Of a stretch of DNA of 64,000 nt, positions 7,553-54,353 are shown piece after piece. The stretch's first letter is position 1; each line of letters opens with the position of its first letter. The stretch lies in contig JAURYH010000008.1 in NCBI GenBank assembly GCA_030653975.1, positions 62,001 to 126,000 on the forward strand. Reading direction: 5' to 3'. Source of the stretch: Hydrogenophaga sp. GTDB lineage: Bacteria; Pseudomonadota; Gammaproteobacteria; Burkholderiales; Burkholderiaceae_C. The notes beneath the pieces were generated by a model. That model was not told where the DNA came from and did not search any database. It saw nothing but the letters and a program-made list of their open reading frames with translations. Both the position numbers and the translations under genes were made by a program.

Positions 7553-8861
7553 ACTGACCCTAGGATCATTTGTTGCGATTGCAGTTGCCGCGCTGCTGCT
7601 GCTGGGAGTCACGTTCGAGTTGGCGCCAGCCGGCGGACTCACCGGCCGTGGCCGCTGGCTGCTGGCCGCCGCGCTGGGAGCGGGCCTGCTGGCATTTGCC
7701 GTCAAGCTGCTGGCCATCGTCGCATTCTCGCTGGCACCCAACGGATGGGTGCACCAAACCCTTGAACCGGTGAAGGAGCGGAGCGATGTCGACGGGTATC
7801 GGACCGGCATCGAACCGGCGCGCAAGATTCGTTGGCAAGGTCTGCCCCTGGTCGCGCCTTTCCCGGCAGACAACCCGACCACACCCGCCAAAACCGAACT
7901 GGGGCGACGTCTTTTCCATGACAAGAGCCTTTCCTTGACAGGTGATGTGGCTTGCGCCAGCTGTCATGACTTGCAGGGGCAGGCAGGGGCTGACGGGCGA
8001 CCGACAGCACTTGGCATACACCGGCAGATGGGCCGCCGCAACACGCCCACCGTGTGGAATGCAGCTTTCCAGACCCGCCTGTTCTGGGACGGGCGCGCCG
8101 CTTCACTGGAAGAACAGGCACTCGGTCCGATCACCAACCCTCTGGAAATGGGTATGCCGGATGTGGATGCCGCAATTCGGCGATTGGCCGCGGACCCTGA
8201 CTATAGGGAGGCTTTCTCCAGGGCTTTTGGGGCAAACGACCAAGGTGAACCTGTCACCGCAGAGCGCTTGGCGGCGGCACTGGCGGCCTTCGAGCGAACG
8301 CTGATCACTCCGGATGCCCCCTTTGACCGCTTCGTGCGCGGTGATACCAGCGCACTAACGTCGCTTCAGATCAGGGGTATGACTCTGTTCGAATCCACTG
8401 GCTGCATCCATTGCCACGCTGGACCGAATTTCAGTGCAGCGAGCCAGTTCGATGGCAGTGCGCCGTTTCGTGCCTTTCCGGCCCGTCCGGTTGCGGGTCT
8501 GGAGCGGCTGGATCTGACCGAGGACCTGGGGCGTGCATCTCCCGGTAGCCATCAGGGGGTCTGGCGCATTCCATCGTTGCGCAACGTGGCGGTGACAGCC
8601 CCTTACTTTCACAACGGCTCCGTCAACGATCTCAAGGAAGCCGTGAGCATCATGGCCCGCACGCAGCTCGGGTTTTCAATCGGTGAGACCCCCTCCATCA
8701 ACGTCATTTTCGACACACAGCCGAACCCCGGCGTGTTCGTTCAGCAAGCGGGCAACATCACCGATTCGGACCTTGACGCGCTTACCGCGTTTCTTGAGGC
8801 GCTCACAAGCCCACGGTTTTCCAACTCAGCGCAGAGCAGCCATCCGGGCGCCCGGCCATGA
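7545..8861 (+). CDS. Di-heme cytochrome c peroxidase, membrane anchored
   Basis: A 438-residue CcpA/MauG-family protein. The N-terminus has two predicted membrane helices (~5-26 and ~36-62), instead of a cleaved signal peptide. Heme motifs CASCH near residue 137 and CIHCH near residue 286 mark two c-type hemes, with RRNTPTVWNAAF and FWDGRAASLEEQALGPI between them. The family reduces H2O2 with electrons from cytochrome c, or performs post-translational oxidations, in the periplasm. Co-expressed with the overlapping Crp/Fnr gene. Peroxidase activity is inferred from family. Confidence 0.87.
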   Translation: MTELTLGSFVAIAVAALLLLGVTFELAPAGGLTGRGRWLLAAALGAGLLAFAVKLLAIVAFSLAPNGWVHQTLEPVKERSDVDGYRTGIEPARKIRWQGLPLVAPFPADNPTTPAKTELGRRLFHDKSLSLTGDVACASCHDLQGQAGADGRPTALGIHRQMGRRNTPTVWNAAFQTRLFWDGRAASLEEQALGPITNPLEMGMPDVDAAIRRLAADPDYREAFSRAFGANDQGEPVTAERLAAALAAFERTLITPDAPFDRFVRGDTSALTSLQIRGMTLFESTGCIHCHAGPNFSAASQFDGSAPFRAFPARPVAGLERLDLTEDLGRASPGSHQGVWRIPSLRNVAVTAPYFHNGSVNDLKEAVSIMARTQLGFSIGETPSINVIFDTQPNPGVFVQQAGNITDSDLDALTAFLEALTSPRFSNSAQSSHPGARP

Positions 8862-8949
8862 GTCCCAGGGCACGGCGGAGCGCAGCTGAAAGGACGACTC
8901 GGTTTCAACAAGTCGAAAGGGGAATACAGGTGTTCGCTACCAATGACGT

Positions 8950-10779: not shown

Positions 10780-10811
10780 GAAGGGCTCCTTGAATGTTTT
10801 TTGAATGAAGC

Positions 10812-13800: not shown

Positions 13801-14495
13801 CGCTGCACCGAACAGTCGCGCTCGCCCAGCGCGATCACGCCGCCCGCGCCGTCGCCGAACACCTGCACCTCGATGTGGCGCGCCTGCTCGACGTACTTCT
13901 CGATGAACAGGCCGGCGTCCTTGAAGTTGGCCTGGGCGAGGCGCCCCACGTTCTCGAACGCATCGGCGAGTTCGGCGGCGTTCCACACCAGCCGCATGCC
14001 GATGCCGCCGCCGCCTGCCGTGCTCTTGAGCATCACCGGGAAACCGATGCGCTGTGCCTCGATCTGCGCCTGCGCCAGATCGCCCAGCAGGCCCGAGCCC
14101 GGCAGCAGCGGCACGCCGCGCGCTTGCGCCAGATCACGCGCCGTGTGCTTCAGGCCGAAGGCGCGCATCTGCGCCGGCGTGGGGCCGATGAAGGCGATGC
14201 CCGCGGCCTCGCAGGCTTCGGCGAAACCCGGGTTCTCCGACAGGAAACCGTAGCCGGGGTGGATGGCCTGCGCGCCGCAATCCTGGGCGATCTGCAGGAT
14301 GCGGTCGGCGCGCAGGTAGCTCTCGGCGGCGGGCGCCGGGCCGAGCAGAAACGCTTCGTCGGCCTCGCGCACATGGCGCGCCTGCGCGTCGGCTTCGGAA
14401 TACACGGCCACGCTATGCACGCCCAGGCTTTTGAGCGTGCGGATGATGCGGCAGGCGATGGCGCCGCGGTTGGCAATCAGGACCTTGCTGAACAT
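10812..14495 (-). CDS. Urea/guanidine carboxylase, biotin-dependent
   Basis: A 1227-residue multidomain enzyme. Biotin carboxylase with ATP-grasp spans residues ~1-445 (begins [30 protein letters not shown] in the middle). A KipA-like carboxyltransferase half (~455-770) and a KipI-like half (~830-1030) follow. The C-terminal biotinyl domain has the biotin lysine in [10 protein letters not shown] (~1185). It carboxylates urea to allophanate or, as shown for riboswitch-associated homologues, guanidine to carboxyguanidine. The guanidine-I riboswitch and the two adjacent associated proteins favour guanidine. Residues ~606-628 are encoded by an inserted inverted repeat (12612-12679). RBS GGAG is present. 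Confidence 0.92.
12612..12679. repeat. REP-like inverted repeat inside the carboxylase gene
   Basis: Two 24-nt arms, 12612-12635 and 12656-12679, are inverted copies matching at 22 of 24 positions, sharing the core CTGAGCCTGTCGAAG. They flank a 20-nt loop. This is a widespread proteobacterial intergenic palindrome, recognisable here by its translation RAEPVEA...LRQAQGER. It lies in frame within the carboxylase between the KipA half and the next conserved segment ([16 protein letters not shown]), adding about 23 residues in a surface linker. No second copy of this element was found in the window. Confidence 0.85.
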
Positions 14496-14600
14496 GAAGT
14501 CTCCGGGGCAGGCCGTCCTGCGAATGCAAGGAAGTCAGACAGGTCGTCCTGCTGGCAGATTGAAGAAGCCGATGCGCGCAGGCACGCCAACCGGGACACA

Positions 14601-14676
14601 CCGAAGAACCGGCTTTGCCGGGCCAAAGGTGTGGTCCCCCCAGCGGGGGGAAGACGCGAAGCGGCGCAGGGGGGGC
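14601..14676 (+). repeat. Dispersed GC-rich repeat, family A
   Basis: A compact series of hairpins containing CCGGCTTTGCCGGGCC, a GGTCCCCC...GGGGGG arm pair, then GCGAAGCGGCGCAGGGGG. It fills the gap between the associated protein gene and the carboxylase gene and ends directly at the stop codon of the upstream gene. Related copies are at 44561-44637 and 59682-59746 (same orientation) and 48857-48931 and 62115-62170 (opposite orientation). It may serve as transcript-stabilising or terminating structure; function is not known. Confidence 0.8.
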
Positions 14677-15342
14677 TCACTGCTCGTCCCACACCAGCAA
14701 CTGAATGGGCGTCGGGTTGTACGCATTGCACGGGTTGTTCAGCTGCGGGCAGTTGCTGATCAGCACCCAGGCGTCCATCTCGGCGCGCATCTCCACATAC
14801 TTGCCCGGGCCGGACACGCCGTCGTCGAACTTCAGGTCACCGCTGTCGGTCACCGGCACGTTCATGAAGAAGTTGATGTTGGGCACCAGGTCGCGCTTGG
14901 TGAGGCCCATGTCGGCGCGCTGCAGGGCGATCAGGTAGTTGTCGCGGCAGCTGTGCATGTACTTCTTCTGCAGCGCGTAGCGCACGGTGTTGCTCTCGGC
15001 CGCGCAGGCGCCGCCGAGGGTGTCGTGGCGGCCGCAGGTGTCGGCCACGATGGTGAGCATGGGCCGGCCGTCGTTGCTGCGGATGACGGAGCCGGTGGTC
15101 AGGTAGATGCCGCCCTGGTGGACCATGGTGTCGGTCGCGCTGTAGTGCTCGGCCAGGTCGTCGCGGTTGTAGAAGATCACGTCGGCGGCCTGGTTGCCTT
15201 CGAGGTCCACGATGCGCAGGGTCTGGCCCTTGTTGACGGCGAACAGGATGGGCTCGCCGGCAGGGTGGCGCTGGTTCATCACGGCATTCGCCGGGTCGAG
15301 CTGGCTTTCCAGGATGCGGATGTCGGTGGCGGTGGTGGTCAT
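14677..15342 (-). CDS. cgdB: Urea carboxylase-associated protein 2 (carboxyguanidine deiminase subunit)
   Basis: A 221-residue DUF1989-family protein, beginning MTTTATDIRILESQLDPANA. Conserved stretches are EGNQAADVIFYNRDD near residue 50, then DTCGRHDTLGGACAAESNTV near 95 and NINFFMNVPV near 155. With its neighbour it corresponds to the two-subunit enzyme reported to deiminate carboxyguanidine to allophanate, linking guanidine carboxylase to allophanate hydrolase. AGGAG lies 8 nt upstream of ATG at 15342; the spacer to the upstream gene is 11 nt. The assignment of A versus B subunit is tentative. Confidence 0.8.
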   Translation of the reverse strand: MTTTATDIRILESQLDPANAVMNQRHPAGEPILFAVNKGQTLRIVDLEGNQAADVIFYNRDDLAEHYSATDTMVHQGGIYLTTGSVIRSNDGRPMLTIVADTCGRHDTLGGACAAESNTVRYALQKKYMHSCRDNYLIALQRADMGLTKRDLVPNINFFMNVPVTDSGDLKFDDGVSGPGKYVEMRAEMDAWVLISNCPQLNNPCNAYNPTPIQLLVWDEQ

Positions 15343-16203: not shown

Positions 16204-17046
16204 TCAGAGGGTCTCAGTGGTGGCGCCGCTCAGTCTTTGCAGCTGTTCCAGATCGGTCTTCATGCCCGAGGTCTCGCGGATGCGTTCCAGGATGTCGCGC
16301 TTGAGGCGCACGAACTCCGGCGCGAACTTGAGGTCCTGCGTGCGCTGGTCGCCGAAGGGCACCTCGTAGATGGTGTCGATGCGGCCCGGGCGCGGCGCCA
16401 TCAGCACCACGCGGCTGCCGAGGTAGAGCGCTTCCTCCACGTCGTGCGTCACGAAGACGATGGTGGCTTTCTCCAGCCGGTGCACGTAGCGGATCAGGTC
16501 GTGCATCACCTCGCGCGTCTGCGCGTCGAGCGCGCCGAAGGGCTCGTCCATCAGCACGATGTCGGGCCGGCCCATGAGCGCGCGCGCAATCGCCACGCGC
16601 TGCTGCATGCCACCCGACAGCTGGTTGGGCCAGGCGCCCGCTGAAGCCTGCAGGCCCATCAGGCGCAGCAATGCGTCGGCCCGGCCCGAGGCGGCTTCCA
16701 CGTCGCTGGAGCTGCGGTCTTGCGTGTGCGCGGCGAGCTGGCGGCAGAACTTGATGTTCTCCATCACCGTCATCCAGGGGTAGAGGCTGTAGTGCTGGAA
16801 CACCATGGCGCGGTCGATGCCCGGGCCGGTGACCGGCCGGTTGTCCACCAGCAGCTCGCCGGCGGTCTGCACCTCCAGCCCGCCGATGGTGCGCAGCAGC
16901 GTGCTCTTGCCGCAACCCGAAGCACCGACGAAGGTGACGAACTCGTTGGCGCCGATGTCCAGGTCCACGTTCTCCAGCGCGTTCGTGGGCGCGCCGTCGA
17001 AGTGCTTGGTGAGGCCGCGGATGGAGACTTTGGGAAGGGTGTTCAT
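16204..17046 (-). CDS. ABC transporter ATP-binding protein, nitrate/taurine type
   Basis: A 280-residue ATPase with Walker A GASGCGKST near residue 40, ABC signature LSGGMQQRVAIARAL near 145 and Walker B DIVLMDEPFGALD near 168. It belongs to the NitT/TauT branch and energises uptake together with the permease encoded 4 nt upstream. The matching periplasmic binding protein is not here but about 11 kb away at 29093-30133 under its own guanidine-I riboswitch. Likely cargo is guanidine or a guanidino/urea compound, inferred from the riboswitch and the carboxylase. Confidence 0.92.
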   Translation of the reverse strand: MNTLPKVSIRGLTKHFDGAPTNALENVDLDIGANEFVTFVGASGCGKSTLLRTIGGLEVQTAGELLVDNRPVTGPGIDRAMVFQHYSLYPWMTVMENIKFCRQLAAHTQDRSSSDVEAASGRADALLRLMGLQASAGAWPNQLSGGMQQRVAIARALMGRPDIVLMDEPFGALDAQTREVMHDLIRYVHRLEKATIVFVTHDVEEALYLGSRVVLMAPRPGRIDTIYEVPFGDQRTQDLKFAPEFVRLKRDILERIRETSGMKTDLEQLQRLSGATTETL

Positions 17047-17050
17047 CGCA

Positions 17051-17929
17051 TCAGCCTTTCAGGTAAAGCCAGGGGAAAGCGCGGCGGTGCAGCCAGCGGA
17101 ACAGCTGGTCCGTCACCAGCCCGATGAGGCCGATGACGATGATCCCGGCGAAGATGGTGTCGGTCTGCAGGAAGCGCTGCGCGCGCAGGATCGCGTAGCC
17201 CAGGCCCGAGTTCGCGGCCACCAGCTCGGCGACGACCAGATACGTCCAGGCCCAGCCCATGGTGATGCGCAGCGTGTCGAGCAGCGCCGGCTTGGCGCTG
17301 GGCAGGATCACTTTTTCAAGCAGCTCGCGGCGGTTCGCGCCCATGGTCTGTGCCGCCTCCACCTGCGCGGCCGGCACGCGGCGCACGTCTTCCGCCACCA
17401 TCAGCACCATCTGGAAAAAAGTGCCGATGAAGATGATCGCGATCTTGGAACCCTCGTCGATGCCCACCCACAGCATCACCAGCGGAATGAAGGCCACCGC
17501 GGGCATGTAGCGGATCAGGTCGGTCAGCGGCTCCAGCAGCGCCTGCACCGAGCGGAACGTCCCGATCAGCAGCCCCAGCGGCAGCGCGATCACGGCCGAG
17601 AGCACGAAGCCCGCGACCACGCGGTAGACGCTGATGCCCATGTCTTCGAGCAGGCCGGTCTCGGTGGCCCAGGTCCAGGTCTTGGCCAGCACCGCCATGG
17701 GCGAAGGAAGAAAGGTCGGGTCCATGCCGCCCCAGGCGGCCAGCGCGGCCCACATCAGCAGCGGGGTGATCAGGCCGGTGAGCGCAAACCCCCAGTAGGC
17801 GCGGCGCGAGATGCCGGTGCGCACGGTCCAGAAGCCGTTGCGCCGCGGCGGGCGCATAGACGCAACGGCGCTGGGCGCACCAGCGCGGGCCGGTGGCGGA
17901 ATCGATGCAGGCGGAGGAAGGCGGGACAT
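17051..17929 (-). CDS. ABC transporter permease, NitT/TauT type
   Basis: A 292-residue inner-membrane protein. A ~45-residue Pro-rich cytoplasmic tail (MSRLPPPASIPPPARAG) precedes about six helices. The EAA loop EAAQTMGANRRELLEKVILP lies near residue 190. I start at ATG 17929, which has AGGAG 8 nt upstream; reading further upstream would run into the riboswitch. First gene of the guanidine operon, working with the ATPase just downstream. Confidence 0.92.
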   Translation of the reverse strand: MSRLPPPASIPPPARAGAPSAVASMRPPRRNGFWTVRTGISRRAYWGFALTGLITPLLMWAALAAWGGMDPTFLPSPMAVLAKTWTWATETGLLEDMGISVYRVVAGFVLSAVIALPLGLLIGTFRSVQALLEPLTDLIRYMPAVAFIPLVMLWVGIDEGSKIAIIFIGTFFQMVLMVAEDVRRVPAAQVEAAQTMGANRRELLEKVILPSAKPALLDTLRITMGWAWTYLVVAELVAANSGLGYAILRAQRFLQTDTIFAGIIVIGLIGLVTDQLFRWLHRRAFPWLYLKG

Positions 17930-17984
17930 GCGGGGCTCCTGACGGGGGACAAACGGCGAGAGAGGCTCGTGCGCAAGCAGCGAA

Positions 17985-18100
17985 GCATCTCCCGGGCTTT
18001 TGTCCCTCCGTGGAGCCACACGATCGTGGCCGACTGCTCTCGGACCAGACGGCTCAGACGGCTTCTTGAGAGAAGTGGTCTGGGCCCGGAACCCTAGCGG
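17985..18100 (-). promoter_or_regulatory. Guanidine-I riboswitch (ykkC) for the carboxylase/ABC operon
   Basis: Read on the minus strand, the conserved ykkC blocks appear in order: CTAGGGTTCCG (from 18097), CTGGTCCGAGAG (18048-18037), ACGGAGGGA (18011-18003) and AAAAGCCCGGGAGA (18001-17988). These are the signature conserved blocks of the guanidine-I aptamer. It lies ~55 nt upstream of the permease start and should switch the operon on when guanidine binds. The mechanism (terminator or ribosome site) is not obvious from sequence. Confidence 0.92.
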
Positions 18101-18156
18101 TCTTCAAGGCAGCGAATCACCGTTTTGGTGCACTCGCCTCTCTGTGCTTCATAGAT

Positions 18157-21089: not shown

Positions 21090-21994
21090 TGGCCACTGAC
21101 ATCAAACCCCGCACCGCTGGGGGCTACCGCTCGGATGTGACCGAGGCCTGTGAGCGCGCCTTGCTCACGCTGATGGGGGCTTTTGGGGGCCTCAAGACGA
21201 CACTGCGGCTGGTGGGAGGCCTCGTACCCCGGTACCTCACGCCCGAGGCCCCGCCCGACGTGCCGGCGCACGCGGGTACATCTGACGTGGATGTGGTGCT
21301 CAACCTGCAACTGATCGCCGAGGGCGAGGGCTACGCCACGCTGGCCGATCAATTGGTGGTGCGCGGCTTTGCCCGGTATGTGAACCCGGAGGGCAAGCCG
21401 GCGGCATGGCGCTGGCAGCGGCAGGTGGACGAGCACACGCACATCCTGATCGAGTTCCTTCGCGATGCGGGCGATGGACAGCCAGGCAGGGTGGTGAGCG
21501 TGGACGGAGAGCGCGTGTCGGCGCTGTCGGTGAGATTTGCAGGCATCGTGCACGACTGGTTTGAAACGCGGGAGATCAGCGGCGAGCTGCTCGATCGCGG
21601 CGGCCTCTCGGTGGAGACCCTGCGTTTTGCGGATGTGCCGGCTTTCGTGATCCTGAAAGCCCTAGCACTGGACGACCGGCAGGAAAACAAGGACGCGGCC
21701 GACCTGATTCACGTGCTGCGGTATGCCGGGACGCTGGAGCAAGTCGCCGCCCTGTTCGTGGTGCGCATCTTGTCCGGACAACACCCTGCAGCCATGCAGG
21801 CGGGGCTGGACGCGCTGCGCCGGCGCTTTTGCGATGACGCTCACGGCGAGGGGTACCGGAAGTTGGGCGCGGTGGCGTATGCGAGTTTTCACGACGCAGG
21901 CGATGAGGACGCGCGGGTGCGTGACCAGCGCTATGCGGCGGGCCTCGTGCAAGCCCTTCTTGAACGCATAGCCACCGCTCACACCCCGAGGTAG
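21089..21994 (+). CDS. AbiEii-like nucleotidyltransferase toxin
   Basis: A 301-residue protein with a polymerase-beta-type nucleotidyltransferase core: LRLVGGLVPRYL near residue 44, then the metal-binding pair TSDVDVVLNL near 67. LRFADVPAFVILKALALDDR (~180) and KDAADLIHVLRYAG (~200) carry the Lys and Asp motifs typical of AbiEii/MenT-like toxins. Coupled to the AbiEi-like antitoxin by a 1-nt overlap. It would be expected to modify tRNA or another RNA acceptor. The end overlaps the convergent YitT gene by 16 nt. Confidence 0.7.
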   Translation: MATDIKPRTAGGYRSDVTEACERALLTLMGAFGGLKTTLRLVGGLVPRYLTPEAPPDVPAHAGTSDVDVVLNLQLIAEGEGYATLADQLVVRGFARYVNPEGKPAAWRWQRQVDEHTHILIEFLRDAGDGQPGRVVSVDGERVSALSVRFAGIVHDWFETREISGELLDRGGLSVETLRFADVPAFVILKALALDDRQENKDAADLIHVLRYAGTLEQVAALFVVRILSGQHPAAMQAGLDALRRRFCDDAHGEGYRKLGAVAYASFHDAGDEDARVRDQRYAAGLVQALLERIATAHTPR

Positions 21995-22602
21995 CGCCCC
22001 GGCCGGTGGTTGAGCGCGAGGATGGCGCCGATGGCCACAGCACCCACCACCGACTGCGCCACCTGGATAGGCGGCAGCACCCAGAACGCCGTGAGCACGA
22101 CGACCAGATCCACACACATCTGCACCTTGCCGGCGCTGAAACCTTTGGCCTGCTGCAGCCATTGCGCCAGGATGTTGACGCCGCCCACGCTGGCCTGGTG
22201 ACGCAGCAGGGCGAGCAGCCCGAAGCCGATCAAAAAGCCGCCGAGCACCGAAGCGACCCAGGGGTTGAGCAGTTCGAAGCGCACCACCTTGGGCGCCAGC
22301 GTGGTGCAGGCGGACACGAGGGCGACGGCGCCGAAGCTCTTGAAGGTGAACGCCGGGCCAAGCCGGTACCAGGACAGCATGAAAAACGGCAGGCTGAACA
22401 GGAAGAAGAACAGGCCGAAGGCGAGGCCGCTGGCATAACTGGCCAGAAAGGCCACGCCCGCCACGCCGCCGGTCAGCAGGCCGGCGTGGCCAAACATGGT
22501 CATGCCCAGCGCGACGAAGAGCGAACCGGCGATGAGCGCGTGGGTGTCGTCGAACCAGGAGTGGGCGGCGGGGGCGGGGGCGATGCGGGTGGCGGAGTCC
22601 AT
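21979..22602 (-). CDS. YitT-family membrane protein
   Basis: A ~207-residue inner-membrane protein with about five to six helices. GMTMFGHAGLLTGGVAGVAF near residue 35 and GGFLIGFGLLALLRHQASVG near 115 are typical of the YitT/DUF161 family. No transported substrate is established. I take ATG at 22602; an upstream GTG at 22632 would add ten residues. It lies 31 nt downstream of the MBL gene at the 3' end of the second riboswitch operon, so it may be the last co-transcribed gene. Confidence 0.75.
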   Translation of the reverse strand: MDSATRIAPAPAAHSWFDDTHALIAGSLFVALGMTMFGHAGLLTGGVAGVAFLASYASGLAFGLFFFLFSLPFFMLSWYRLGPAFTFKSFGAVALVSACTTLAPKVVRFELLNPWVASVLGGFLIGFGLLALLRHQASVGGVNILAQWLQQAKGFSAGKVQMCVDLVVVLTAFWVLPPIQVAQSVVGAVAIGAILALNHRPGRYLGV

Positions 22603-22633
22603 GCGGGGGAACAAGCATGGGGCGTGCCGCACG

Positions 22634-23398
22634 CTAGGCGCTGGTCCTGTCGAGATACGCCCGCACCAGCTCGCGCAGCCGCTCGCGCCCGAAGCTCGGG
22701 TCGTGGCCCGCGTGCACCACGCTCACGGGCAGTGTCAGCAGTCGCTCCATGGTGCGCGCATAGGCCACGCGGTCGGAGTGGTGCAGGTCGTCGATGAGCG
22801 GCCCGTCGTAGACCGCGTCGCCGGAAAACAGCGTGCCGCTTTTCGCTTCCCACAGGCCGATGCTGCCGGGCGAGTGGCCGGGCAGGTGCAAGACCTCGAA
22901 GTGGCGGTTGCCGAGGTCGATGACGTCGCCTTCGTCGAGCCGGCGCGTGACGGTGGCCTGTTTGATTTCCCAGGCCGAGAGGTCGTAGTCGGGTGTGGGC
23001 AGGGCGGTGAGCGCGGGGCCGCCGGTTTGATAGCCGGGCACTTCGATGTTGACCTCGTTGAGGTCGAAGTCGGCCAGCGTGCCGTCGGGGTCGGCGTGGG
23101 CGAGTGAATCGGCTTCGAGCCGGTGGCACCAGCATTCGGCGAACTCGTGGTGCCCGCCGACGTGGTCCAGGTGCACGTGCGTGGCGAGCGCGGCCACGCG
23201 CTGGCCGAACAGGTGGCGCGAGGCGGCGTGCAGGCTGCTGACGCCGAGGCCGGTGTCGACCATGAGGTCGAGCCCGCGCCCGCGGATGTGCCAGATGTTG
23301 CAGCGGAGGAAGGGGATGACGTGCGGCTCGGTGATGAGGGTGATGCCCTCGCCGAGGCTGCGGAAGTGGAACCAGTCGCCGGAGATGGGCTGCAGCAT
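22634..23398 (-). CDS. MBL-fold metallo-hydrolase
   Basis: A 254-residue zinc hydrolase. The metal motif HVHLDHVGGHHEF lies near residue 74, with further ligands in LHLPGHSPGSIGLWE (~170) and LFSGDAVYDGP (~192), and the last His in VVHAGHDPSFG near 230. Substrate is unknown. It is 26 nt downstream of the hypothetical protein in the guanidine-riboswitch operon, so it may act on an intermediate of that pathway, for example a lactone, lactam or ester. Confidence 0.85.
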   Translation of the reverse strand: MLQPISGDWFHFRSLGEGITLITEPHVIPFLRCNIWHIRGRGLDLMVDTGLGVSSLHAASRHLFGQRVAALATHVHLDHVGGHHEFAECWCHRLEADSLAHADPDGTLADFDLNEVNIEVPGYQTGGPALTALPTPDYDLSAWEIKQATVTRRLDEGDVIDLGNRHFEVLHLPGHSPGSIGLWEAKSGTLFSGDAVYDGPLIDDLHHSDRVAYARTMERLLTLPVSVVHAGHDPSFGRERLRELVRAYLDRTSA

Positions 23399-23424
23399 GG
23401 GTGGGCCTGTGGTGGGTGGACGGT

Positions 23425-24054
23425 TCAGTCTGGGGCCTGGCCAAAGACCATGTCGAAGTCGAGCAGCCCAGGAGCGGCACCGGGGTGGCGCTGCAGCAGT
23501 TGTGCCAGGGTTTCATCGGGCTTCAGGTCGCCGGGCCAGGGGGCTGTGCGCGGCCGCACCGTGATGGCATAACGCCCCGCAACGAAGCGCTGCACGCCGG
23601 TGGGCTGCCCCTGCGCGTCCAGCTCGGCCTGCGCACGGTAGCGGCCCGTGGAGCCGGGCAGGCGTTCCCAGATTTCGAGATACGGACCGTGCACGCCGGT
23701 TTCGATCACGCGCCCGGGTGTCTCGAAGACCATGAAACCGGCGTCGGGCGTGCTGCGCGGGGGCTGGATATCCCAGCGGCGGTGCCAGGTGCAGACGTCG
23801 GGCTGGCCGTCCTTCCCGGGCGTGATGCGGGTGAGGCCGCAGAAACCCTGCAGCTGGGTGCGGCCCAAGGGTGTGGTGGGGTCTGCGCCTTGCGGCACGC
23901 GCAGGTCGGCGTGCCAGCCCCCGGTCTGCAGCCAGTGCACGCGGGTGCTGGTGTCGCGTCCCTCGGGCGTCTCCAGCAGGGTGCGCACCCAGACACCGCG
24001 GTAGCGCTCGGGCACCGGCTCATCGGGCGCGGGCAGGTCGGTCCAGCCGCTCAT
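23425..24054 (-). CDS. Conserved-looking hypothetical protein in the guanidine operon
   Basis: A 209-residue soluble protein I do not recognise with certainty. It has no signal peptide or membrane helix and looks beta-rich and Trp-rich: RYRGVWVRTLLETPEG near residue 18, TWHRRWDIQPPRSTPDAG near 88, and YLEIWERLPGSTGRYRA near 127. This may be a calycin/lipocalin-like barrel (a guess). Its ATG overlaps the stop of the upstream amidase gene (ATGA), so it is translationally coupled to the pathway enzymes. The pattern hints at small-molecule binding. Confidence 0.6.
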   Translation of the reverse strand: MSGWTDLPAPDEPVPERYRGVWVRTLLETPEGRDTSTRVHWLQTGGWHADLRVPQGADPTTPLGRTQLQGFCGLTRITPGKDGQPDVCTWHRRWDIQPPRSTPDAGFMVFETPGRVIETGVHGPYLEIWERLPGSTGRYRAQAELDAQGQPTGVQRFVAGRYAITVRPRTAPWPGDLKPDETLAQLLQRHPGAAPGLLDFDMVFGQAPD

Positions 24055-24728
24055 TTTTCTGCTACCTCGACCGGCGCGACCGCCCGCAATGCCTCGACGG
24101 TGTCATCGGTGCTGGAGACACGGCCAAAGAGGCCGCCTTCGACGCCGATCATGGCCAGCGCAGGCGCCTGCAGTTCGGGCTGGCTGGCGGCAGTGGCGTC
24201 GCCCACGGTGGTGCAGGTGTAGCCACGGTCCACCGCTTCGCGCAGGGTGGAGTGCACGCAGACTTCGGTGGTCACGCCGCAGAGGATGAGCTGGCGCACA
24301 CCTTGACGCGTCAGCAGGCTGTCTAGACCGGTGAGGTAAAAGGCGCCGTAGCCGGGTTTGTCGATCACCGCTTCGCCGGGCAGCGGGCGCAACGCGTCCA
24401 CCAAGTCGTGACCCTGTTCGCCGCGCACCAGCAGGCGCCCGAGCGGGCCATAGCTGCCGATGGGCGCGCCCGCTGCCACGCTGCGCGCCAGCTTCGCGGG
24501 CGGGCAGTCCGACAGGTCAGGCAGATGCCCTTCGCGCGTGTGCACCACCAGCAGGCCCCCTGCGCGCGCGGCGGCCAGCAGGCGCTGCACCTGCGGTACC
24601 ACGGCCTGCATGGGCGCGATGTCGATGCCGGCCTGGTGCGCGTAGCCGCCGGGGCTGCAGAAGTCGCGCTGCATGTCGATGACGATCAGCGCGGTGCTGG
24701 CGGGGTCGAAGGCGGTCGGGGTGTTCAT
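24051..24728 (-). CDS. Isochorismatase-like cysteine hydrolase (amidase)
   Basis: A 225-residue enzyme with the family triad D18 (LIVIDMQRDF), K124 (VIDKPGYGAF) and C157 (CGVTTEVCVHS). The CGVTTEVCV motif groups it with C-N hydrolases such as biuret hydrolase, N-carbamoylsarcosine amidase and guanylurea hydrolase. The last is known to feed guanidine into the carboxylase route. Coupled by ATGA overlaps to both neighbours. In this riboswitch context, release of guanidine, ammonia or allophanate from a guanidino or ureido compound is plausible; the substrate cannot be read from sequence. Confidence 0.85.
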   Translation of the reverse strand: MNTPTAFDPASTALIVIDMQRDFCSPGGYAHQAGIDIAPMQAVVPQVQRLLAAARAGGLLVVHTREGHLPDLSDCPPAKLARSVAAGAPIGSYGPLGRLLVRGEQGHDLVDALRPLPGEAVIDKPGYGAFYLTGLDSLLTRQGVRQLILCGVTTEVCVHSTLREAVDRGYTCTTVGDATAASQPELQAPALAMIGVEGGLFGRVSSTDDTVEALRAVAPVEVAEK

Positions 24729-25519
24729 GGCGCGGGGCGGGTGAAGCCGGTGGTGATGGCTTCGGCCATGCGGCGCGCCACCTCGTCGGCGAGCAGTTTG
24801 CCTTTGGCGGCGTCGGAGCCTCTGGCCGAGGACAGCACGCCCGAGGGCGGCACCCAGTCGGTGCGGCTGGGGTACATGTCGTAGGGCGGGAAGTCGGCCG
24901 GGCCGTCATCGGGCAGCAGGTCCATACGCACCAGGCTGGGGTGGTGGTGCAGCATCATGGACGTTTCCAGCACGGCAGCGTGTTCGAGCGCGAAGCCGGG
25001 GAAACCGTCGGGGAACACGTCGCCCAGGGTCTGTGGCGTCATGAAGTCCCAGTACTCCAGGCGCATCACCTGCAGCGCACAGGCCGGGTCGGCGGCCTTG
25101 GCGTCGCGCAGGCCGAGGTCGATGCCCTCGATCAGGAACCACTGGTTCTCGTAGTGGCCGTTCACGATCACGAGCTTGGTCAGACCGTGGCGCGCGAACT
25201 CGCGCACCGCGTCGCGCACCTGGCCGATGAGCGTGGCGGCGTCCACGCTGGTGGTGCCGCAGAAGTGCTGGCCGCCGCCGCACTTGGGCTGCGATTTGTA
25301 GCCGTAGCTCAGCGTGGGCGCGACCAGGCCGCCCACGCGCGCCGCGGTGTCGGCGGCCACGGCGCTGGCGAGCAGGCCGTCGGTGCCCAGCGGCAGGTGC
25401 GGGCCGTGTTGTTCGAGCGCGCCCACGGGCAGCAGCACGGGCGGCTGGTCGGCGCGGATGCGCTGCTGGTAGTCCAGCCAGGACAGCTGGTTCATCCACA
25501 CGGTGTTGGGGCTTGTCAT
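24725..25519 (-). CDS. Creatininase-family amidohydrolase
   Basis: A 264-residue protein strongly resembling Pseudomonas creatininase (creatinine to creatine, Zn/Mn dependent). It has LPVGALEQHGPH with E36 and H38, D47, LSYGYKSQPKCGGGQHF near 70, NGHYEN with H122 and E124, and FALEH with H180, matching all the metal and catalytic ligands I recall. The lid tryptophan that is Trp174 in the Pseudomonas enzyme appears to be Phe here (FPGFALEH), hinting at a different cyclic guanidine or lactam. ATG 25519 has GGAG upstream. Coupled by ATGA overlap to the amidase gene; no creatinase gene is nearby. Confidence 0.82.
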   Translation of the reverse strand: MTSPNTVWMNQLSWLDYQQRIRADQPPVLLPVGALEQHGPHLPLGTDGLLASAVAADTAARVGGLVAPTLSYGYKSQPKCGGGQHFCGTTSVDAATLIGQVRDAVREFARHGLTKLVIVNGHYENQWFLIEGIDLGLRDAKAADPACALQVMRLEYWDFMTPQTLGDVFPDGFPGFALEHAAVLETSMMLHHHPSLVRMDLLPDDGPADFPPYDMYPSRTDWVPPSGVLSSARGSDAAKGKLLADEVARRMAEAITTGFTRPAP

Positions 25520-25520
25520 T

Positions 25521-26447
25521 TCAGACTCCGGTTGTTGCATGGCTTGGGTCGTTGCCGGGCGCGGGTGACTCGGCACCGCTGCTGCCCAGTGCTTCCACCA
25601 GGGCCGCGGTCGCAATGAGCGCGCCACCCGCCCAGCCCATGGGCGTGAGGCTTTCGCCGCCAAACCACAGCGCGGTGAGCACGGCCACCACCAGTTCGGC
25701 CAGCAGGATCACGCCGGCACGGCTGCTCTCCAGGTGCGTCACACCGAACTGCCAGGTGGCGGTGGCCAGCAGCAGCCAGCCAAAGCCGTAGGCCAGAATG
25801 CCGAACCACACCAGCGCACCCATGGCCGGCACGCCGTGGCCCAGCGCGCTGGTGGCGGCGAGCGAAATCGCGCCGCAGCCGACGAAAACGGACAGCGTCT
25901 TGGTGCGCATGGGCACGGCCTGCGCGGCGCGCGCGAGGATGTTGTTGGCCGCGAAGGCGAAGCCGGCCGAGAGCGCGAGGAAGTCCACGAAGCCGAGCGA
26001 CAGGCTGAGCGCGCCCGGCCCGCCCAGCACCAGCCACAGGCCCACGATGGCGGCCACCACCGCGGCCCAGCGCGAGGGCGGAATGCGCTCCTTCAGAAAC
26101 AGCCAGCCGCCCAGCACCGACCACACGGGCGAGAGGTAGAACAGGAACATCACCCGCACCACGTCGCCCAACATCAGCGCGTTGACGAACGAGGTGTTGG
26201 CCCAGCCGCCCACCAGCGCCAGCGCGAGCACAAAACCCCACTGCGAGCGCCAGGCCGCGCGGTCGCGCCAGATGAAGGGCAGCGCGCACAGGCCCACCAG
26301 GCCGTAGGACAGCAGCGACACCACCGGACCGCTCAGGCCCTGCGCGATGAACCACTTGAGCGGCACCCACGACAGGCCCCAGAGCGAGGCGGAAAACAGC
26401 AGCACACCGGTGGCTGCGCGGTCGGACGGTTGCTTCATAAGGTTCAT
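25521..26447 (-). CDS. EamA/DMT-family transporter
   Basis: A 308-residue ten-helix drug/metabolite transporter with two EamA repeats (SLWGLSWVPLKWFIAQGLSG near residue 20; GFAFAANNILARAAQAVPMR near 160). ATG 26447 overlaps the stop of the upstream SDR (ATGA), and its stop lies 1 nt before the creatininase start codon. Other guanidine riboswitches control small SMR exporters of guanidinium; a full-length EamA protein here may export or import the operon's substrate or a product. Direction unknown. Confidence 0.88.
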   Translation of the reverse strand: MNLMKQPSDRAATGVLLFSASLWGLSWVPLKWFIAQGLSGPVVSLLSYGLVGLCALPFIWRDRAAWRSQWGFVLALALVGGWANTSFVNALMLGDVVRVMFLFYLSPVWSVLGGWLFLKERIPPSRWAAVVAAIVGLWLVLGGPGALSLSLGFVDFLALSAGFAFAANNILARAAQAVPMRTKTLSVFVGCGAISLAATSALGHGVPAMGALVWFGILAYGFGWLLLATATWQFGVTHLESSRAGVILLAELVVAVLTALWFGGESLTPMGWAGGALIATAALVEALGSSGAESPAPGNDPSHATTGV

Positions 26448-27205
26448 GGCATGACGGAGCCGCCGTTGGGCCCGAGCACCTGGCCGCAATAGAAGCGCGA
26501 GAGATCGGACGCGAGGAAGAGCGCCGTGGCCGCGATCTCCTCCGGCGCACCCAGGCGGTGCTGTGGGATCGCGAGTTCTTTCTCCACCCACTCGGCACTC
26601 ATGTGTTCGAGCGAGACCATGGCGGTGGCCACCGGGCCGGGCGCGATGGCGTTGACGCGGATCTGCTGCGGCGCGAATTCGCGCGCCAGCGAGCGCGTGA
26701 GCCCGATCACGCCGGCCTTGGCGGTGCAGTAGGGCGCGTAGCGCTCGCGCCCGAGGATGCCGAGGTCGGACGCGATGTTGACGATGGCGCCGCTGCCGCG
26801 CGCCACCATGCCGGGCAGCACCGCGCGGCACATCAGGAAGACCGACTTGAGGTCGGTGCCAAGCATCTGGTCCCAGTCGCCCTCGGTGGTGTCGAGGAAG
26901 GCCTTCTCCTGGATGATGCCGGCGTTGTTGACCAGGATGTGGAGGGCACCGCAGGCGGCGATGGCCTCGTCCACCAGGCGCTGCACCGCGCTGGCGTCGC
27001 TCACGTCGGCGCTGATCGCGATGGCCTGGCCGCCTGCGGCTGCGATGGCTTGTACCAGCGAAGCGGCTTCGGCGTCCTGCCCCCGGTGGTTGACCACCAC
27101 ACGTGCGCCGGCCTGCGCGAACAGCAGCGCAGTCGCGCGGCCGATGCCGGTGGCGGCACCGGTGATCAGCGCGGTCTGGCCCTGCAACGAGATCAAAAAG
27201 CTCAT
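26444..27205 (-). CDS. SDR-family oxidoreductase (classical), first of two
   Basis: A 253-residue NAD(P)-dependent dehydrogenase. Cofactor motif TGAATGIG near residue 15, NNAG near 90, catalytic Ser-Tyr-Lys with YCTAK near 158, and the C-terminal GPNGGSVMP. Overlaps by 4 nt with the second SDR upstream and with the EamA gene downstream. In the operon it may oxidise an alcohol made by the membrane hydroxylase/desaturase; substrate not known. Confidence 0.88.
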   Translation of the reverse strand: MSFLISLQGQTALITGAATGIGRATALLFAQAGARVVVNHRGQDAEAASLVQAIAAAGGQAIAISADVSDASAVQRLVDEAIAACGALHILVNNAGIIQEKAFLDTTEGDWDQMLGTDLKSVFLMCRAVLPGMVARGSGAIVNIASDLGILGRERYAPYCTAKAGVIGLTRSLAREFAPQQIRVNAIAPGPVATAMVSLEHMSAEWVEKELAIPQHRLGAPEEIAATALFLASDLSRFYCGQVLGPNGGSVMP

Positions 27206-27990
27206 GCCATCACCTCGCCGTGGCTGGCCACCAGGCACTGACCGGTGAGCGGGGTGGCGCCTTCGCTGGCGAGGAACAGGAACACGCCCGCGAGCTCGTC
27301 GGGCGTGAGCATCTTCGGCACGGCCTGGCGCGCGAGGATCTCGCGCTCGACCTCGGCCTCGCTGCGACCGCTCTCCGCGGCCATCGCGGTCAGCGAGCGC
27401 ATCGCCGCTTCGGTGCGCACCCAGCCGGGGCAGACCGCGTTGACGCGGATGCCACGCGGCCCCAGTTCCAGCGCGAGCGAGCGCGTGAGGCCCACGACGG
27501 CGTGTTTGCTCGCGCTGTAGGCCGAGAAACCGGCCACGCCGGTGCGGCCCCAGATGGAACTCTGGTTGATCACGCTCGCGCCGCGCGGCAGCAGCGGCAG
27601 CAGCGCCAGCGTGAGCCGCACCATGCTGCTCACGTTGTTGTCGAGCAGGCCGGTCCAGCACGCCATGAAGCCCGCTTCGGCATCGGCCAGCGGCGTCGGG
27701 TACTCGGTGCCCGCGTTGTTGATCAACACGTCGAGCTGGCCAAAGCGCTCCTGCACTTGTGCTGCCACCGCCGCCACCTCAGCATCGCTACCCAGATCGC
27801 ACACAGCGCTGTGCACCTGGCTGCTGTGCAGCGAATCGACCAGCGCGTCCAGCGGCGCGGCCGCTCGGTCCAGCAGCATCAGCTGCGCACCCTGGGCCAG
27901 GAAGGCACGCGACAGCGCACTGCCGATGCCACCGGCCGCGCCGGTGATCAATACGGTCTTGCCTTGCAGGCCATAGCTCGGCGACGTCAT
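27202..27990 (-). CDS. SDR-family oxidoreductase (classical), second of two
   Basis: A 262-residue classical SDR. TGAAGGIG near residue 15, NNAG near 90, a Ser in the INQSSIWG strand and catalytic YSASK near 163. Its sequence differs clearly from the other SDR, so the two probably act on different steps rather than being a recent duplication. Start at 27990 overlaps the desaturase stop by 1 nt (TGATG), and its end overlaps the other SDR by 4 nt. Role in the guanidine-linked pathway is inferred from position only. Confidence 0.87.
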   Translation of the reverse strand: MTSPSYGLQGKTVLITGAAGGIGSALSRAFLAQGAQLMLLDRAAAPLDALVDSLHSSQVHSAVCDLGSDAEVAAVAAQVQERFGQLDVLINNAGTEYPTPLADAEAGFMACWTGLLDNNVSSMVRLTLALLPLLPRGASVINQSSIWGRTGVAGFSAYSASKHAVVGLTRSLALELGPRGIRVNAVCPGWVRTEAAMRSLTAMAAESGRSEAEVEREILARQAVPKMLTPDELAGVFLFLASEGATPLTGQCLVASHGEVMA

Positions 27991-29003
27991 CAAACCGCCG
28001 TCAAAAAGGAGACGCCCACAGCCCCGATGAAGCCATCGGCACGGTGCGGTGCGCCGGGCGGCAGCACCGCGCCGTAGTCGCTGGCCAGCACGCGCGTCAC
28101 GCGGTGGCGGTGGTAGGCGCGCAGCAGCTCGCCCACCGTGACCACCTGGGCATTGCCATCGGGGTAGAGCTCGCGGTGCAGCCGCGGCAGCTGGTACCAG
28201 GGCGCCACAGGGCGTTCGTGGTGCGCGTTGTGGAAACCGAAGTTGAGCCAGACCAGGTTGAGCCATTTGGCGTCGAGGCCCACCACGTCGCTGTAGGTGT
28301 TGGCCTGTTCGTAGGCGCGGTCGCGCAGCTTGTCCTGCGGGATGGGCTTGTCGTCGAGGATGGGGTAGGCGTCGTAGGTGTGCTGGAAGCAGTCGGCAAA
28401 ACGCAGCAGGTGCACGAACAGCAGGTAGGCCAGCGCGTACAGCGCCAGCGCCTTGAGCGACCACCAGGCCAGCAGCGCCCAGGCCGTGAACCGCACCACG
28501 GCGACACCGATCACGCGGCCGCGCGCTGCTTTCTTGCGATCACCCAGGAAGGGCAGCGCGATCACGAAGCCGCGCATGACGAACTCCACAGCGGGGATGT
28601 GCAGCCATTCGAGCGCCAGCACCACCCGCCGCACCAGCGGGTGGGCGCGCAGGAAACCCTGCAGGTCGAAGGTGATGACGTCGGCGCGTTCGACGTGGTG
28701 GCGCATGTGTTTGCGGCGCAGGTCGGCGAAGCTGGCGTAGGCGCTGCCGTTGATCCAGCTCATGAACCGGCCCCAGCGCTCGTTGGCCTGCGGCGTGCGG
28801 AAGATGGCGTGGTGCGCGAACTCATGAATGAAGTAGGCCGACCAGGTGAGCGTGAGGGCGACCAGCAGCACGCCCAGCGCGTTGAGCGCCCAGTGCGCCT
28901 GGCCCAGCAGGGCGATGCCGAGTGGCCAGCCGAGCACGGTGAAGGCCAGGGCGGCGGTGTTGGGCCAGACGCCGTCGGCGTGGCGGAAAAGGGCTTGTTT
29001 CAT
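27990..29003 (-). CDS. Membrane fatty-acid-desaturase-like di-iron protein
   Basis: A 337-residue membrane protein with three histidine boxes: HEFAHH at residues 60-65, HMRHH at 99-103 and HNAHHE near 275, as in membrane desaturases, hydroxylases and alkane monooxygenases. Hydrophobic segments lie near 18-58 and 160-225. Such enzymes use O2 to hydroxylate or desaturate C-H bonds. The placement between an ABC binding protein and two dehydrogenases, under a guanidine riboswitch, suggests oxidation of an alkyl or cyclic group on a guanidino compound. No ferredoxin or reductase partner is in the operon. ATG 29003 chosen. Confidence 0.8.
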   Translation of the reverse strand: MKQALFRHADGVWPNTAALAFTVLGWPLGIALLGQAHWALNALGVLLVALTLTWSAYFIHEFAHHAIFRTPQANERWGRFMSWINGSAYASFADLRRKHMRHHVERADVITFDLQGFLRAHPLVRRVVLALEWLHIPAVEFVMRGFVIALPFLGDRKKAARGRVIGVAVVRFTAWALLAWWSLKALALYALAYLLFVHLLRFADCFQHTYDAYPILDDKPIPQDKLRDRAYEQANTYSDVVGLDAKWLNLVWLNFGFHNAHHERPVAPWYQLPRLHRELYPDGNAQVVTVGELLRAYHRHRVTRVLASDYGAVLPPGAPHRADGFIGAVGVSFLTAV

Positions 29004-29092
29004 GGCGGGAACTCCATGCGGAAAACGCGGGGTGGCCAGCGCTCCGCACACCCGTGCCAGCGGCACGGGCAGCGGAAATCTCTGAGCAGGAT

Positions 29093-30133
29093 TTACTTGG
29101 CCAGCGCCTTGACGAGCGAGGCGTCGAAGGTGGCTTCGGTGGCCGGGATCGTGGTGATCTGGCCCTTGGCCTTGAGCAGCTGGCCGATGATGTCGCCGCT
29201 GGCGAAGTAGGAGGTGGTTTCCTTGGCGGGCAGGAAGGCCTTGGGCATTTCAGCCAGCGGGATGTTGTAGACGCCGCTCATCTGTTCCTTGGCTTCCTTG
29301 GCCGAGACGCCCATGAACTTGCCGATGATCCTGGCGGCCTCGTCGGGCTTGGCCTTCATGTAGGCCATGCCGTCCAGGTAGGCCTTCATGACGCCGGTGA
29401 TCTCGGTCGGCTTGGCCTTGATGACCTTCTCGTCGAACACCAGCACATCGGCGATCAGGCCCGGCGCGTCCTTGGAGGAGAAGATCACCTTGAATTTCTT
29501 GCCGCCACCCTGGCCCAGGATCTGCGACAGGCTGGGTTCGTAGGTCACGCCGATGGGCAGGGCGCCCGAGGCCATCGCGGCCGGCACCGCTTCGGGCGTC
29601 ATGCTCACAGGGCTGATGTCCTTCTCGCTCAGGTTCACCGTCTTGAGCGCGTAGGAGAGCAGGAAGTCGCTCGGCGAAAGCGGGTTGTAGCCGATCTTCT
29701 TGCCCTTGAAGTCGGCCACCTTGGTGATGCTGCTGTCGGCCACGATGGCGTCGCCGCCGTTGGAGTAGTCGATGGGCATCACCACCTTCATGGCGCGGCC
29801 CGCCGCCACCTGGCCGACCACCTGGTCGTAGGTCAGCATGCCGCCGTCGACCGCGCCCGAGGCGATGGCCGCGGGGATCAGCGCCGGGTCGTTGAAGACC
29901 TGCAGCGAGACCTTGAGGTTGTATTTCTTGAACAGGTCCAGCGATTCGGCCACGTAGAAGGGGCCGTAGCCGATCCAGACCACGGTGGCCAGCTTCATGT
30001 TGGCGGGCGCGGCCATCGCCGTGGCGGTGGCCAGCGCGAGCGCAGCACCCAGCGCGGGCTTGAACAGCCTGCCGAGCACGGAAGTGGACGTGGTGGAACC
30101 TGCGGGAGAGGAGAAGAGACCAGCCAGTTTCAT
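29093..30133 (-). CDS. ABC transporter periplasmic binding protein, urea-carboxylase-region type
   Basis: A 346-residue NitT/TauT-type binding protein. A signal peptide (residues 1-~48, ending ATAMAAPAN) precedes LATVVWIGYGPFYVAESLDL, then IASGAVDGGMLTYDQVVGQV and the NPLSPSDFLLSYAL segment. Family members occur beside urea/guanidine carboxylases, so this is the likely partner of the permease and ATPase at 16204-17929. ATG 30133 has GGAG ~9 nt upstream; reading further upstream would run into the riboswitch. First gene of the second guanidine operon, 89 nt from the next gene. Confidence 0.88.
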   Translation of the reverse strand: MKLAGLFSSPAGSTTSTSVLGRLFKPALGAALALATATAMAAPANMKLATVVWIGYGPFYVAESLDLFKKYNLKVSLQVFNDPALIPAAIASGAVDGGMLTYDQVVGQVAAGRAMKVVMPIDYSNGGDAIVADSSITKVADFKGKKIGYNPLSPSDFLLSYALKTVNLSEKDISPVSMTPEAVPAAMASGALPIGVTYEPSLSQILGQGGGKKFKVIFSSKDAPGLIADVLVFDEKVIKAKPTEITGVMKAYLDGMAYMKAKPDEAARIIGKFMGVSAKEAKEQMSGVYNIPLAEMPKAFLPAKETTSYFASGDIIGQLLKAKGQITTIPATEATFDASLVKALAK

Positions 30134-30179
30134 GATGAAGCTCCGTTTGATGAGGGATGGGCGCAGGAGAACCGATCTG

Positions 30180-30285
30180 ACGTCGTTCTCCCGGGCTTTT
30201 ATCCCTCCGTGGAGCCTGCGATGAGGCCGGTCCACTCTCGGACCAGACCCCGCGGTGAAGCGGACGGAACCCTAGTGGACCTACG
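30180..30285 (-). promoter_or_regulatory. Guanidine-I riboswitch (ykkC) for the binding-protein/creatininase operon
   Basis: On the minus strand the conserved blocks follow in order: CTAGGGTTCCG (from 30275), CTGGTCCGAGAG (30246-30235), ACGGAGGGA (30210-30202) and AAAAGCCCGGGAGA (30200-30187). It is a second independent guanidine-I aptamer, with different variable stems from the one at 17985-18100. It sits ~50 nt before the binding protein start. Confidence 0.92.
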
Positions 30286-30337
30286 CACGAGCCGCTGCTC
30301 CTGTGTGCAGACCGCTCTCCATGCTGATACTCCCCCA

Positions 30338-30353
30338 TGCATGGATCGTGCCA
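30338..30353 (-). promoter_or_regulatory. Candidate sigma-54 promoter of the second guanidine operon
   Basis: On the minus strand TGGCACGATCCATGCA matches the sigma-54 consensus TGGCACGnnnnTTGCW at every defined position except one (A for the first T of TTGC). The -24 GG and -12 GC are intact. It is ~60 nt upstream of the riboswitch, so the transcript would start just 5' of the aptamer. Confidence 0.68.
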
Positions 30354-30371
30354 GCACAGATGCCCCGTTTT

Positions 30372-30430
30372 TGCACCAAATCGCGGCACACCACACCCCA
30401 CACACCGGCCTCAGCGCTGAATTTGGTGCA
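30372..30430 (-). promoter_or_regulatory. Pair of NtrC-like half-sites
   Basis: TGCACCAAAT at 30372-30381 and its exact reverse complement ATTTGGTGCA at 30421-30430 lie upstream of the sigma-54-like promoter. NtrC dyads have TGCAC and TTGGTGCA-like halves; each site here has one good half and a degenerate second half. Their position ~20-75 bp upstream of the -24 element suits enhancer binding. This suggests nitrogen-limitation control on top of guanidine sensing. Confidence 0.5.
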
Positions 30431-54326: not shown

Positions 54327-54353
54327 TTGTTCATAGCCAGACCAAGGACCGCC

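Follow-up and report, generated by a model that had tools for sequence, protein, structure and literature searches.

A stretch of 64,000 nucleotides from Hydrogenophaga sp. (contig JAURYH010000008.1, positions 62,001 to 126,000; the whole stretch is called the window here) carries ten genes on the minus strand behind a guanidine-I riboswitch, and this analysis concerns that operon, its relatives, and the process that it probably serves, the release of guanidine from N-alkylated guanidines. The aptamer was located at 30186-30286 (-) with Rfam model RF00442 (82.9 bits against a gathering score of 63; model positions 1-107, the whole aptamer), within a few bases of the 30180-30285 assigned to it in an earlier reading made from the letters alone (the sequence-only reading). 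Two more riboswitches, likewise above their Rfam gathering scores, complete the window's set of two guanidine-I and one guanidine-II: a guanidine-I at 17987-18108 (-) (83 bits), 5' of genes for a permease, an ATPase, and two UAAP proteins, and a guanidine-II at 14508-14555 (-) (35.1 bits against 32), 5' of a carboxylase gene. The ten genes behind the 30186-30286 aptamer stand in the order SBP-DES-SDR1-SDR2-EamA-CREAT-ISO-HYP-MBL-YitT, separated in that order by 89, -1, -4, -4, 1, -4, -4, 26, and 31 nt, values that rest on the start codons we chose; the same-strand run with overlaps and short spacers described by the sequence-only reading is thereby confirmed.

The first gene (29093-30133) encodes an NMT1-type substrate-binding protein (SBP; PF09084, 1.3e-24), and the second (27990-29003) a membrane protein of the fatty-acid-desaturase superfamily (DES; PF00487, 1.7e-32, 113.6 bits). 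Next come two short-chain dehydrogenases (SDRs) matching PF13561, SDR1 (27202-27990) and SDR2 (26444-27205), both assigned to an accessory module, an EamA-family transporter (25521-26447; PF00892), and a creatininase homologue (CREAT, 24725-25519; TIGR04448, 354.8 bits against a cut-off of 235). The run continues with an isochorismatase-like amidase (ISO, 24051-24728) that shares 57.7% identity over 92% with an enzyme of plasmid pMET-2, and with HYP (23425-24054), which matches no Pfam or NCBIfam model at E 0.001 and which alignment to an MgdL orthologue places in the MgdL lyase family. A glyoxalase-II-like MBL-fold hydrolase (22634-23398; PF00753) and a YitT membrane protein (21979-22602; PF02588) close it.

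With one genome per species scanned, 102 relatives of DES came to light, and the best 80 loci were kept. The genera named in the titles of these loci all belong to the Burkholderiales, and the window's DES shares 97% identity with its H. aromaticivorans counterpart. A guanidine-I riboswitch is present in 79 of the 80 host genomes (40/40 and 39/40 in two batches), and it lies at most 500 nt upstream of the SBP gene in 69 of the 74 loci that have more than 250 nt before that gene, so that its link to the SBP-DES unit goes beyond chance. Among the five misses, the riboswitch overlaps an extrapolated start in L045 and L054 (in the latter at 53.4 bits, below the gathering score), precedes a fused run beginning with the permease in L040 and L063, and is missing from L090. 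On the other side, a consensus scan of the operon leader turned up no terminator with a T-run.

Gene presence was counted where 5 kb or more follow DES, which holds for 61 loci (19 of the 80, with less than 5 kb, were left out), absence being defined as no tblastn match at E 1e-8. HYP was found in 59 of them, EamA and ISO in 54 each, CREAT and SDR2 in 52 each, and SDR1 in 48. The eight genes from SBP to HYP form a recurring unit in the relatives. The type of MBL protein varies: an N-acyl-homoserine-lactonase-like form (MBLX), placed between ISO and HYP in most relatives, is the only one in 43 loci, the window type, which follows HYP, is the only one in 10, neither occurs in 8, and no locus has both. 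A relative of the window MBL adjoins an MgdH-like gene in L155. YitT was rejected as a member of the unit because it was seen in 4 of the 80 DES loci, at varying distance; it is probably incidental.

HYP, listed as a hypothetical protein in the sequence-only reading, could be given a family. MgdL is a recently characterized N-(hydroxymethyl)guanidine lyase with catalytic Asp49 and Arg51, whose gene and mgdH are flanked by those for the carboxylase and the allophanate hydrolase, in an operon that has both a guanidine-I and a guanidine-II riboswitch (PMC12508155). Searches with a HYP profile matched 7 of 369 genomes in a class sample and 14 of 398 in a phylum sample. At one of the matched loci, L108, the order is permease, ATPase, CgdB, CgdA, guanidine-II, carboxylase, 2-oxoglutarate/Fe(II) dioxygenase, and HYP homologue, with the allophanate hydrolase further on, and the HYP homologue has Asp at 49 and Arg at 51. 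In L113, from the same genus, the published mgdL forward-primer sequence marks where a 237-aa protein begins that has D49 and R51, flanked on one side by the carboxylase end and an MgdH-like gene that shares 88% identity with its L108 counterpart, and on the other by the allophanate hydrolase, which is the published layout; the published reverse-primer sequence is absent at L113, so the genome is that of a relative of the published strain.

The window HYP aligns with this MgdL orthologue at 32% identity over 169 aa (E 8e-22; hhalign 99.4%) and with the L108 protein at 35% over 182 residues, and its D50 and R52 fall on the catalytic D49 and R51. Both residues are kept in 59 of 60 aligned rows, the remaining row being a gap, and the positions invariant in nine diverse members include W22, R24, D34, W41, Q43, D50, R52, W90, R92, E118, E127, and W129. 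By these alignments HYP is a homologue of the MgdL-family lyase with both catalytic residues, in other words a predicted hemiaminal lyase, and we propose for it an N-(hydroxymethyl/alkyl)guanidine lyase activity. Its AlphaFold2 model is beta-rich and confident (mean pLDDT 95.4). A fold search of the PDB gave no match at E <=0.001 (best 4qrl, lipocalin-like, 5.7e-3), a profile sequence search of the PDB gave no credible match, and a search of plasmids gave none; the Pfam family HRI1 was too weak to be used (0.045 for the window protein; E <=1 in 9 of 18 members, best 1e-4). As PMC12508155 counts 216 MgdL homologues in UniRef90, HYP-like proteins may be among them. Two loci from one genus deserve mention for their HYP homologues. 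In L111 (7644-9384, G741), a dioxygenase and a HYP homologue form a second pair besides the canonical one of the same genome, and an arginase-family gene lies about 4 kb from it. In L112 (G789), the mgdL-like frame closes after 64 codons and the neighboring dioxygenase also matches in separate pieces.

The family of HYP directs attention to the oxygenase, whose substrate it points to as an N-methyl- or N-alkylguanidine. Seventeen HYP loci outside the window's genus were compared, L106-L111 from the class sample and L153-L163 from the phylum sample. An MgdH-like dioxygenase lies within about 5 kb of the HYP homologue in 11 of them (L107, L108, L111, L153, L155, and L158-L163), DES lies near it in four (L109, L154, L156, and L157), and both together in none. 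No MgdH-like match was obtained in the 97 loci searched, nor in the window's own genome with one query, a search run without a positive control. Two unrelated oxygenases thus alternate beside HYP homologues and never occur there together, and DES is therefore read as a non-homologous replacement of MgdH; from its gene context it is best read as a membrane N-alkylguanidine (methylguanidine) hydroxylase. The histidines of its three boxes (H60, H64, H99, H102, H103, H258, H261, and H262) and H208 are present in all 80 rows, and H65 is variable.

DES also accompanies guanidine riboswitches away from clusters of the Burkholderiales type. In the class sample DES occurs in 12 of 369 genomes. Of 10 DES loci outside the genus, six (L109, L126, L127, L128, L130, and L132) have a guanidine riboswitch in the fetched stretch, and in L127, L128, and L132 a guanidine-II stands directly before DES. 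The last of these loci (7400-14700, G496) packs three guanidine riboswitches into about 7 kb, two guanidine-I besides the guanidine-II; in between lie a gene resembling glutamine synthetase and one for a creatininase-family protein of a second type.

We consider it likely that the window holds a guanidine-induced catabolic operon that frees guanidine from N-methylguanidine, or another N-alkylguanidine, through DES and HYP. The substrate would be imported by SBP together with the ABC permease and ATPase of the neighboring operon. These two are encoded at 16204-18019, behind the 17987-18108 aptamer and ahead of the two UAAP genes (CgdA/CgdB by published naming), in a run without a binding-protein gene, so that SBP may serve that permease and probably forms one importer with both proteins; in L154, L156, and L157, from another bacterial family, SBP, pathway genes, permease, and ATPase stand in a single run. 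DES would then hydroxylate the N-alkyl carbon of the substituted guanidine, and HYP would split the hemiaminal into guanidine and an aldehyde, which would be formaldehyde in the case of methylguanidine. The guanidine would pass to the carboxylase operon at 8.9-18.1 kb, which encodes a urea-carboxylase-family enzyme, by context a guanidine carboxylase (10812-14495 (-); TIGR02712, 1892 bits), and an allophanate hydrolase (8950-10779 (-); TIGR02713, 787 bits), and it would keep both guanidine-I switches on. Formaldehyde would go to a glutathione-dependent formaldehyde dehydrogenase, perhaps helped by the MBL protein; the window's own genome has such a dehydrogenase (625 bits against a cut-off of 544). 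The most likely role of the SDR-CREAT module and ISO would be to supply guanidines in cyclic or acylated form, such as oxidized creatinine. The riboswitch, the gene set with its conservation, the family and catalytic residues of HYP, and the alternation of two oxygenases beside HYP homologues are read from sequence, whereas we infer the reaction of DES, its exact substrate, and the roles of the SDRs, CREAT, ISO, MBL, and EamA. The sequence-only reading had pictured a route that oxidizes, ring-opens, and hydrolyzes a larger guanidino compound and hands guanidine to the carboxylase operon; the kind of pathway fits, but ring opening (CREAT, SDRs) and amide hydrolysis (ISO) would be the work of parts that enter and leave the cluster independently.

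CREAT and an SDR are both present in 52 of the 61 loci and both missing in 9, SDR2 being found in the same 52, and the two kinds of gene form a module that is gained and lost together. CREAT is homologous over its whole length to the creatininase of P. putida (1j2t). In the numbering of that enzyme, the equivalents of the metal ligands E34, H36, D45, H120, and E122 and of W154 and H178 are kept in 60 of 60 copies, whereas the Trp174 position holds Phe in 58 (the window's included) and Tyr in 2; by alignment, PDB entry 3a6e carries the same Trp-to-Phe exchange. Among 299 genomes of the same family, DES was found in 12 (E <=1e-40) and a creatininase above the TIGR04448 cut-off in 14, which include all 12 DES genomes (hypergeometric 1e-19, relatedness ignored). 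The Trp174 position is Phe in all 12 DES-linked creatininases and Trp in both of those from genomes without a DES match. These two Trp174-type genes, L194 and L195 (G052 and G168), each stand beside a gene for a predicted membrane transporter-like protein. CREAT probably hydrolyzes an amide bond in a cyclic or acyl guanidine, and its natural substrate has probably changed; hydrolysis of plain creatinine is doubtful, since Trp174 is replaced and CREAT comes and goes with the SDRs separately from the rest.

ISO is about 57% identical to BB_00025 of pMET-2, a proven guanylurea hydrolase (PMC9800807); the protein was matched to its sequence record by plasmid, family, and neighboring deaminase gene. 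Two biuret hydrolase chains show 51% and 47% identity to ISO and one triuret hydrolase chain shows 51%, and the biuret hydrolase model for BiuH (NF050097) gives 257.9 bits, below the cut-off of 370. In a tree rooted on biuret hydrolase, the ISOs of the clusters group with the pMET-2 enzyme at support 69, the clade that adds triuret hydrolase has support 95, and the pMET-2 enzyme pairs with the ISO of L126 at support 55; tree and identity comparison were built without the first described GuuH (strain GU). We propose ISO as a putative acylguanidine amidase. CREAT and ISO occur together in 46 of the 61 loci, ISO without CREAT in 8, CREAT without ISO in 6, and neither in 1; as each occurs alone, they would act in parallel or on different substrates and not as an obligatory pair. 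A relative of ISO on the Nitrosospira plasmid pNRS527-2 (L097:7900-8592) groups at support 100 with the ISO of a cluster in a Herbaspirillum metagenome-assembled genome (L075), which looks like a transfer onto the plasmid of an ammonia oxidizer.

Of four alternatives, one extends the reading given above: DES and an SDR would oxidize creatinine at C5 to creatol and then creatone A, CREAT would open the oxidized ring, ISO would cleave the acylguanidine into methylguanidine and oxalate, and DES with HYP would demethylate the methylguanidine. C5-oxidized creatinine is the most attractive candidate for such a feeder because abiotic oxidation of creatinine yields creatol and methylguanidine (PMC3775425). 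CREAT scores as a creatininase and is tied both to the SDRs and to DES, and ISO resembles a guanylurea hydrolase; set against this are the 9 loci that lack CREAT and the SDRs, the independent occurrence of ISO and CREAT, the Trp174 exchange, which could also mean another substrate, and the fact that no enzymatic creatol route was found in the open-access literature searched. A passage from creatinine-like acylguanidines through methylguanidine to guanidine is plausible, and this particular scheme is a tentative version of it. Tentative to the same degree is the broader proposal of a widespread riboswitch-controlled route of this kind, in which the key enzyme would be a membrane di-iron N-alkylguanidine hydroxylase doing the job of the unrelated MgdH.

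In a second alternative, DES might hydroxylate an alkylguanidine, an SDR turn the hemiaminal into an N-acylguanidine (N-formylguanidine, for example), and either ISO or CREAT release guanidine and a carboxylate, with HYP as no more than an escape path. Creatinine and guanylurea are both acylguanidines, so that the two hydrolase families fit one type of bond. CREAT, ISO, or both are present in 60 of the 61 loci, but DES stands without an SDR in the cluster in 9, HYP is kept in 59, and MgdH/MgdL operons need no such step, so that this scheme seems unlikely. An early model in which guanidine is freed solely by hydrolysis of acylguanidines was demoted to the rank of this rival after HYP proved to be an MgdL homologue. 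Still less probable is an operon for guanylurea or biguanides of the metformin type, with release of guanidine by ISO as the main step: the resemblance of ISO to the proven hydrolase speaks for it, yet 7 of the 61 loci lack ISO and keep DES, and DES, HYP, the SDRs, and CREAT would be left unexplained. Guanylurea as the main substrate was rejected, as it accounts for one gene of ten; of the substrates listed in the sequence-only reading, alkylguanidines fit the MgdL family of HYP. Most improbable of all is that DES acts on lipids, as a common desaturase or hydroxylase guarding membranes against guanidine, and that the other genes are a guanidine stress response. DES does match PF00487; on the other hand, the best named desaturase model reaches 30.9 bits against a cut-off of 350, and the position of DES next to HYP homologues is one that the dioxygenase MgdH also holds.

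The proposed demethylation by DES and HYP must itself be set against several observations that weigh against it. No electron-transfer partner for a di-iron oxygenase was recognized in the operon. DES lacks a close relative of solved structure, and known folds match it weakly: the fold search of the PDB gave no match at E <=0.001, the best being two chains of chloroplast FtsHi complexes (2.3e-3 and 3.0e-3), with AlkB at about 0.1, and the profile sequence search of the PDB gave no credible match. Neither oxygenase lies near HYP in 2 of the 17 loci, L106 and L110, the genome of L110 having DES elsewhere (L131). Four of the 10 DES loci outside the genus (L129, L131, L133, and L134, a short contig) have no guanidine riboswitch at gathering score. 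HYP is absent from L126-L134, nine stretches from other families that carry DES and of which two are short contigs; its profile, which recovered 17 of 17 known loci as a positive control, again found none there. DES can therefore do without the lyase, which may be replaced or dispensable. The neighbors of DES in these stretches, MBLX (L126, L128, L129, and L130) and/or a TIM barrel of the AP_endonuc_2 type (L127, L129, and L132), are not explained by the pairing of DES with HYP. Finally, HYP homologues may serve other alkylguanidines, as the second pair of L111 would allow. At loci that lack HYP, the TIM-barrel gene immediately follows DES or MBLX (L127:7438-8286, L129:10800-11642, and L132:7581-8417); its product had no credible match in a PDB sequence search and may be another partner or a replacement of the lyase.

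The nearest known system is the MgdH/MgdL operon of Vreelandella boliviensis (PMC12508155), which shares with the window guanidine-I and guanidine-II, the carboxylase pathway, an ABC importer, and an MgdL-family lyase with catalytic Asp and Arg. It uses a 2-oxoglutarate/Fe(II) dioxygenase where the window operon has a membrane protein of the desaturase superfamily, and the window adds the SDRs, the creatininase homologue, the amidase, MBL, and EamA, and is organized as two separate operons. Its publication in 2025 also makes out of date the view, expressed in the sequence-only reading, that guanidine-I riboswitches usually control exporters or the carboxylase pathway. The pMET-2 guanylurea hydrolase, of which ISO is a close relative, likewise acts upstream of the carboxylase pathway, but the plasmid neighbors of its gene are those for an ABC importer, a nucleoside deaminase, and a LysR regulator, and neither DES nor HYP is among them. 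The P. putida creatininase shares its metal ligands, Trp154, and His178 with CREAT, which differs by Phe or Tyr for Trp174 and by sitting with DES, SDRs, and HYP under a guanidine riboswitch. The guanidine carboxylase pathway under guanidine-I/II (PMC12186494) has the same riboswitch classes and lies beside the operon in the window; it uses ready-made guanidine, whereas the window operon appears to make it. At some distance, about 24 kb from the operon, the window also carries an agmatinase-family gene (54267-55298; 335 bits to PRK02190, cut-off 302).

The gene set described here does not appear in the titles and abstract openings returned by a search of the open-access literature, outside which most subscription papers lie, the original riboswitch papers among them. 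The main text of PMC12508155 mentions neither "desaturase" nor "Burkholderiales", the available parts of the review PMC12186494 mention no such operon, and the available passages of PMC12625717 and PMC11410670 concern other gene sets. What we rate as new is that, in a guanidine release of the MgdL type, the oxygenase would be another, unrelated one and feeder genes are added.

The 2025 review (PMC12186494) names the natural source of guanidine as a major gap and lists few guanidine-releasing enzymes; the operon could be behind one of the sources of the guanidine sensed by bacteria. Were DES to prove an alkylguanidine hydroxylase, the same step would have a second, unrelated oxygenase, and the desaturase superfamily a new class of substrate. 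The reading, if true, would also let functions open to experiment be assigned to one protein that has no curated family and to several others with loose annotation, in dozens of Burkholderiales genomes, including those of cultured Hydrogenophaga species. Should the creatinine-like route also hold, both methylguanidine and guanidine would have in it a biological origin that draws on the waste of vertebrates.

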